Below, piece by piece: positions 18,603 to 20,015 of a DNA stretch of 64,000 nucleotides; position 1 is the first letter of the stretch, and every line of letters begins with the position of its first letter. The translations under genes were made by a program, and so were the position numbers. Origin of the DNA: Candidatus Nitrosotalea sinensis (lineage in GTDB: Archaea; Thermoproteota; Nitrososphaeria; Nitrososphaerales; Nitrosopumilaceae); contig NZ_FRFC01000003.1 in the NCBI RefSeq assembly GCF_900143675.1, positions 436,095 through 500,094 of the forward strand. Reading direction: 5' to 3'. The notes below the pieces were generated by a model that saw nothing but the letters and a program-made list of their open reading frames with translations, had not been told where the DNA came from and did not search any database.

Positions 18603-19595
18603 CTATATGAGAAGAAAGTCCTTTGCCTCAAAAAAGCCTGATAGTTCCTTTGATAATTGGTCTGAGAATATGCCTAGAATCTCAAAATCGCTTGGCGAGA
18701 AGGATTTCTCACTAAATATTGCCAATACTGCAACAACCTCTCCCTTGTACAATATGGGATATCCTGCAAAAGACCTCATTTTCTCCTTTTTTGCCCAATC
18801 ATGATGTTTTATCCTCGGGTCGTGTACTACATCATTTGAAACAACTGGCTTCTTTGTCTTTGCAATGGAGCCTATCTTCAAGGAACTCTGGGGGACTCGG
18901 GAAAACTCGCCGTTTATGTTCTTGTATTTGCCTGCACTATATTTTAGAATCAACACTTTTGATTTTTTGTCATAAAACCAGATTCGTGCAAATTTGGCAT
19001 TGAAATACTTCACGAGGCTTTCAACAATTGTTTGAAGTCTGTCGTTTAGGTTGTCGTGCTTTTTGATTGAATTTAGTATTGTGTATACCTGAAGCTTTTT
19101 CTCACTTGAAGCATGTTCATCAAAGAGAACATATGGAGAGGATTTGGTTGCCTTTGATTCATACGAGCGAAGATCTGATATTATGTCTGAAAATCTATTT
19201 AGAAAATTGTTTGTTTCAAGGTCGTATTGTTCTATTGATGAGAAAACAAAATGGCAAACCCAGTCAAAATCCCCACTAAGACGTGCAGAATATATGCAAA
19301 AGGGGGACTCGTTTAGATATTTTGTTAGTCTTTCTATTCCATCTGTAATGTTTTTTGAAAATTTGAACTTGACAAGTATTGTTCTGTTTACTTTGTCTGA
19401 TACTAGGCTTGGATTTAAGATGGTGGAATATCCTAAAATGGATTTGTTCTTTTCAAGTCTTTGCAATCTTTGGCGTATGGCTCTGTCTGTGATTGTAAAC
19501 CCCATACCTTGAAGCGTACTTGATATCTCTTGAGAAGAGACTCGGGCATTTTTTCCCAAGTGGAATAGTATGACCTTGTCTATCTCATCAAGCAT
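18603..19595 (-). CDS. Lrp/AsnC-type regulator fused to a GAF domain
   Basis: The 330-residue protein has an N-terminal Lrp-type helix-turn-helix (MLDEIDKVILFHLGKNARVS, RAIRQRLQRLEKN) at residues 1-60, an Lrp ligand-domain-like region at about 70-150 (RTILVKFKF, ARLSGDFDWVCHFVF), and a GAF domain at about 170-320 (ARIWFYDKKSKVLILKYSAG, KPVVSNDVVHDPRI, AGYPILYKGEVVAVLAIF). The GAF domain probably binds a small ligand or senses redox state. Paired palindromes just upstream suggest autoregulation. The combination is unusual. Confidence 0.8.
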   Translation of the reverse strand: MLDEIDKVILFHLGKNARVSSQEISSTLQGMGFTITDRAIRQRLQRLEKNKSILGYSTILNPSLVSDKVNRTILVKFKFSKNITDGIERLTKYLNESPFCIYSARLSGDFDWVCHFVFSSIEQYDLETNNFLNRFSDIISDLRSYESKATKSSPYVLFDEHASSEKKLQVYTILNSIKKHDNLNDRLQTIVESLVKYFNAKFARIWFYDKKSKVLILKYSAGKYKNINGEFSRVPQSSLKIGSIAKTKKPVVSNDVVHDPRIKHHDWAKKEKMRSFAGYPILYKGEVVAVLAIFSEKSFSPSDFEILGIFSDQLSKELSGFFEAKDFLLI

Positions 19596-19627
19596 ATCTT
19601 TGATATGGGACGTGTTGTTAATATTGA

Positions 19628-19693
19628 TTTCCGAATTGGAAATTATATCTAGTATGTATTTATCTGATAAGGTAATTTACTTCCAAACTGGAA
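19628..19693. promoter_or_regulatory. Twin operator-like palindromes (TTCC-N5-GGAA)
   Basis: Two similar inverted repeats occur: TTTCCGAATTGGAAA (19628-19642) and TTCCAAACTGGAA (19681-19693). Their centres are 52 bases apart, about five helical turns, so proteins bound to both would face the same side. They lie in the divergent promoter region between the Lrp-GAF gene and a small exported protein gene, and are the natural binding sites for that regulator. Confidence 0.55.
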
Positions 19694-19751
19694 ATTTTAA
19701 CGTGATTTTTCTTCCATCTAGAATATAGCATAAAGTTGACCTTGTATTTTC

Positions 19752-20015
19752 ATGAATAAAAAATCCATCAACAAGTTTGCCATCCTAGTTATTTTGATGG
19801 TGGCAGTTCCAGAAGCTGTTGGTCATACCATGTTTGAAAAATCTCATGGTCCGGACTCGTCTGTCAATGCCGCAATTGCATTTACAGAAAACTTGCGTGA
19901 CAACACAGACAAAAATGGTATATGCCATATAACATTACAAAACGACCAGTCAGGATCTGATGTAGCACGTGCAACTGGCTTTCAGGGAAAATATGGTGAT
20001 CTCTCTTGCACCTAA
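19752..20015 (+). CDS. Small exported hypothetical protein
   Basis: The 87-residue protein starts MNKKSINKFAILVILMVAVPEAVGH, a signal peptide with a likely cleavage near residue 24. The mature part of about 60 residues has two cysteines (GICHI and LSCT) that could pair. No family is recognised. It is divergent from the Lrp-GAF gene and shares its regulatory region, so it may be a target of that regulator. Confidence 0.6.
   Translation: MNKKSINKFAILVILMVAVPEAVGHTMFEKSHGPDSSVNAAIAFTENLRDNTDKNGICHITLQNDQSGSDVARATGFQGKYGDLSCT

Follow-up and report, generated by a model that had tools for sequence, protein, structure and literature searches.

Two copies of an inverted repeat lie in phase between a regulator gene and a divergent gene for a small exported protein in Candidatus Nitrosotalea sinensis, and together they probably constitute the operator of that regulator, an Lrp-family protein with a GAF domain (Lrp-GAF). 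Through the first site Lrp-GAF would repress its own gene, and through the second site and a further half-site it would control the divergent gene in a ligand-gated manner. The pair is very probably the site of the adjacent regulator, because it is kept in dozens of relatives in which the distance between the copies changes by whole helical turns only.

The window, that is, the whole stretch of DNA analysed, comprises 64,000 nucleotides. In it, predicted operator site 1 (TTTCCGAATTGGAAA) occupies positions 19628-19642 and predicted site 2 (CTTCCAAACTGGAAA) positions 19680-19694, 52 bp apart from start to start and with no strand assigned to either. As a preliminary description of this DNA had placed them, they lie between the regulator gene (18603-19595, minus strand) and the gene of the exported protein (19752-20015, plus strand). 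The same description took them to be two identical repeats 52 bases apart. The positions and the spacing are confirmed, but the full TTTCC-N5-GGAAA is found in site 1 only; site 2 starts with CTTCC. The core TTCCN5GGAA occurs five times in the window against an expectation of 1.0, a count reached in 1 of 100 shuffles, and 47 times singly in the 1.6-Mb genome. The search of the genome for spaced pairs that had been proposed returned exactly one with 25-55 bp between copies, the site 1/site 2 pair beside Lrp-GAF. A third copy of the core in this region (19553-19565) falls within the coding N-terminus of the regulator gene and is missing from all 15 same-genus orthologues; it was rejected as part of the operator and attributed to chance.

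The regulator is a protein of 330 aa, for which profile, structure-prediction and fold evidence indicates an AsnC-type HTH, a RAM-like domain and a GAF domain. The N-terminal winged HTH is that of the Lrp/AsnC family: the NCBIfam Lrp model matches residues 2-145 (E 3e-10, below the equivalog cut-off), LrpA (1i1g) matches by profile (E 1.5e-7), and of the Pfam models HTH_12 scores above its cut-off and HTH_AsnC-type (E 6e-5) below its own. The recognition helix spans approximately residues 37-49 (TDRAIRQRL). After the HTH comes the beta-alpha-beta-beta-alpha-beta order of a RAM domain, predicted with moderate confidence (E71-79, H84-96, E100-105, E112-118, H121-134, E139-147); Pfam AsnC_trans_reg gives an E value of 0.057 only. 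The GAF domain exceeds the gathering score with both Pfam GAF_2 (68.5 bits) and GAF (60 bits), and its top Foldseek matches are GAF structures; the matches include those of NifA (8jrc), PtsP (3ci6) and a cAMP-binding GAF (5w10). Lrp/AsnC proteins are typically of about 15 kDa with two domains, a size that is not strictly required of them; with 330 aa and an extra GAF domain, the regulator is by its sequence a fusion variant of the family. No description of the fusion was found in the open literature, subscription papers being outside that search. Of 37 same-genus genomes searched, our own among them, 17 have a full orthologue, and full orthologues also exist in other families; a named example is the locus of Ca. 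Nitrosotalea devanaterra (LN890280.1, L101), with a match of 91%. A Nitrosopumilus-type Lrp-GAF locus (L120) nearly identical to L119 was also seen in a record titled Robiginitomaculum sp., whose contig is probably mis-binned.

The preliminary description had made the operator depend on conservation of the motif upstream of orthologues, and the computed conservation bears it out. Upstream DNA could be read for 15 same-genus orthologues, and every one keeps the pair at 52-54 bp. Where the spacing is 52 bp (14 loci, counting this one), 17 of the 20 arm positions are invariant as against 4 of the 37 between the sites, and these four sit at the edges. Across several families the pair is present at 36 of 47 distinct Lrp-GAF loci. 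More kinds of arm were accepted once the data had been inspected, so that the weak-arm loci L133 and L198-L201 are less secure in this count. The other 11 have one site or none, some of them with an identical recognition helix (L022, L117, L122, L130). Within the genus, presence of the gene and of the pair agree perfectly (17 genomes with, 20 without), but this agreement is partly circular because the pair adjoins the gene, and it is given little weight here. In genomes bearing Lrp-GAF the ideal form of the site, TTTCCGNNNCGGAAA, is found at the Lrp-GAF locus only. Ideal sites in G016, G017 and G020 were rejected as extra targets, as they lie inside a coding sequence.

Pair spacings at the 36 loci are 51-54 bp in 25, 62-63 bp in nine and 73 bp in two, which correspond to five, six or seven helical turns. 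With a period of 10.5 bp their phase has a mean of -0.28 bp and an R of 0.94, and the distinct spacings alone, compared with uniform draws from 45-80, give p ~0.0006, a value that ignores relatedness. On the protein tree the six-turn class needs two changes and the seven-turn class likewise two. In Nitrososphaeraceae, operators of 53, 62/63 and 73 bp all precede the same divergent gene, which encodes 103 aa. The earlier claim that the sites are in phase thus receives direct comparative support.

A third element belongs to the operator. A predicted half-site (TTCC, 19712-19715, plus strand) follows site 2 after 31 bp, or three turns. It falls where the BRE of the divergent promoter is expected and adjoins the TATA-like element of that promoter (AATATA, 19722-19727, plus strand), which is aligned in orthologues and located 25-30 bp upstream of the ATG. 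Beyond site 2, [TG]TCC is found in 30 of 35 loci, at 31 bp in 25 and at 32 bp in five, regardless of the distance between sites 1 and 2. Since the half-site keeps its distance whatever the pair spacing, site 2, half-site and TATA form a rigid block directed toward the divergent gene. On the other side, a TATA-like element (CAATATTAA, 19618-19626, minus strand) lies about 27 bp upstream of the start codon of the regulator; its TAATAT is kept in most same-genus orthologues, and site 1 covers the expected BRE, some 33-47 bp before the ATG. Judged from the sequence, site 1 and this TATA are a second block, facing the regulator, and only the distance between the blocks varies, by whole turns. The promoter assignments assume leaderless transcripts, and both TATA-like elements are putative in function. 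The comparison supports the operator model of the preliminary description with two corrections: the third half-site is to be included, and the looser motif found genome-wide is not exclusive to Lrp-GAF.

The operator arms follow residues 39 and 42 of the recognition helix, for which reason also Lrp-GAF is very probably the binder. Ala39/Gln42 pairs with TTTCC/GGAAA arms, Gly39/His42 with (T/C)GTCC arms (5 loci) and Thr39/His42 with TTGCC arms (6 loci), neither of the latter two kinds of arm being seen at any other locus. In the Thr39/His42 clade, where the arms change to TTGCC, half-site 3 does not change with them. Genome G118 encodes two Lrp-GAF paralogues with different helices, which match different operators, one TGTCC-type of 54 bp (L191) and one TTTCC-type of 73 bp (L211), and may thus be a natural orthogonal pair. 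The computed covariation amounts to about two evolutionary changes, strong in kind but few in number.

Similar sites are also found away from Lrp-GAF, in what we call class II promoters: TTCCANNNTGGAA-N18-TTCC, followed by a TATA box and a gene start at about +70. They are spread through the genus, also where Lrp-GAF is lacking, and one genome from another family (G038, L164) shows them strongly. The search pattern left their inner positions free, yet A (22/24) and T (23/24) recur there, which speaks for a real motif. In our genome class II sites lie at G000:C3:4277-12436 and C4:208598-208649 (L088, L089, L090, L094); the genes behind such promoters encode a KaiC-like ATPase, small unknown proteins and, near C3:4-12 kb, exported proteins. 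The proposal that every genomic TTCCN5GGAA is an Lrp-GAF target was rejected, because many copies are coding and the intergenic ones are class II, present without Lrp-GAF. Since class II exists in the absence of Lrp-GAF, another factor uses similar sites and could bind at the Lrp-GAF operator too; this factor is probably a separate one, and to call it another Lrp-family protein is a guess.

It may then be asked whether sites 1 and 2 serve mainly another DNA-binding protein, such as a stand-alone Lrp paralogue of class II promoters, with Lrp-GAF merely a target. In favour of this, TTCCN5GGAA, the 31-bp half-site and the start near +70 recur in class II promoters, genomes without Lrp-GAF have such promoters, and our genome does encode another Lrp protein. 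However, families that lack class II promoters still have the full double-site operator along with Lrp-GAF, and the operator arms vary with the recognition helix of this protein. The sites themselves also differ, class II having inner A and T and T/C after GGAA, and site 1 having G/C inside and A outside. Service to another factor is therefore unlikely. That the palindromes are there by chance, or are structural (a hairpin or terminator) with no regulatory role, might be entertained in view of how common TTCCN5GGAA is in the genome, but conserved arms in unconserved DNA, whole-turn spacing and helix covariation refute this here and leave it scarcely credible.

With Lrp-GAF as the binder, each 15-bp palindrome would accept one dimer through the AsnC-type HTH, a geometry consistent with Lrp-type palindromes of about 15 bp on one helix face. 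Autorepression is suggested because site 1 covers the expected BRE of the regulator promoter; its occupancy at the BRE edge would block TFB. Dimers on sites 1 and 2 are proposed to touch and to bind cooperatively on one face of DNA that is bent or looped between them, which would account for spacing changes by whole turns only; a gap of five to seven turns may be spanned by the GAF domain or by a DNA loop. Site 2 and half-site 3, three turns on, would present a rigid block before the divergent promoter, and a GAF ligand would switch the assembly and hence the exported-protein gene. Lrp-GAF might, on the other hand, act as a repressor of the two promoters alike: binding at half-site 3 would then hide the BRE of the exported-protein gene until the ligand brings release. 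Site 1 and half-site 3 each being at the expected BRE of a promoter, this is quite conceivable, if somewhat doubtful, but the rigid 31-bp block with a full site upstream would better fit a positionally constrained activator. By position alone, the arrangement fits an activator of the Ptr2 or Ss-LrpB type, which recruits TBP from upstream of the BRE, and activation of the divergent gene is slightly favoured over its repression.

The putative target encodes an 87-aa exported protein of a family found here only in Nitrosotalea, including genomes without Lrp-GAF; our genome has a second copy (G000:C3:635386-635640). The genes downstream of it vary among Nitrosotalea, so the neighbourhood changes around a constant unit of regulator gene, operator and exported-protein gene. 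In Nitrososphaeraceae (L124-L127, L129, L196, L199, L207, L208, L211) the divergent genes encode a conserved 103-aa protein and then a membrane protein of about 200 aa. No Pfam name was found for these proteins, the 103-aa protein belonging to no known family. At L117, L118, L133 and L191 the divergent genes are for DUF1348, a DUF6789 membrane protein, a zinc alcohol dehydrogenase and an alpha/beta hydrolase. The predicted targets change by clade while the operator persists.

Among known systems, archaeal Lrp sites align on one face with two or three turns between them, and activators bind just upstream of the BRE in a constrained position (PMC2995911); the spacing here, at five to seven turns, is wider, which is a point against the operator model. 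Ss-LrpB of Sulfolobus solfataricus binds a 15-bp palindrome (TTGCAAAATTTGCAA) and activates a neighbouring operon (PMC4046817). It shares an Lrp HTH and RAM with Lrp-GAF and, with the operator predicted here, 15-bp palindromic sites aligned on one face, three of them in its own control region, and a neighbouring target (PMC4046817, PMC2995911). It differs in lacking a GAF domain and in having juxtaposed sites; here sites 1 and 2 stand five to seven turns apart, and one element of the three is a half-site only, at the divergent promoter. Ptr2 of Methanocaldococcus jannaschii, an Lrp-family activator whose dimer site is tightly constrained to a position immediately upstream of the BRE (PMC2995911), resembles the arrangement of site 2 and half-site 3, but its sequence is different and it has no GAF domain. 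PMC2995911 describes for Ptr2 no operator that serves two divergent promoters and varies in spacing by whole turns. A copper-limitation motif of Nitrososphaera viennensis (TTCSGSMTTTGWACYANT; PMC7785015) was rejected as the same motif, its sequence being different.

In NifA-like regulators, as in Lrp-GAF, a GAF fold is joined as a sensor to a DNA-binding regulator. NifA is a bacterial AAA+ activator, whereas in Lrp-GAF the GAF domain is fused behind an AsnC-type HTH and a RAM domain. The fold is also shared with free methionine-R-sulfoxide reductase (3mmh, 4mn7), which is among the Foldseek matches, but thiol catalysis of this type is not expected in Lrp-GAF, because its GAF stretch (residues 182-318) contains no cysteine.

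How ammonia-oxidising archaea, Ca. Nitrosotalea devanaterra among them, control transcription is little known. The present analysis yields a specific regulator-operator candidate, a predicted specificity code and a natural series of whole-turn spacings. Put tentatively, the Lrp-GAF proteins of these archaea may be ligand-gated switches that join divergent promoters over exactly five, six or seven turns, with residues 39 and 42 choosing TTTCC, TGTCC or TTGCC and so perhaps providing orthogonal pairs even within one genome.
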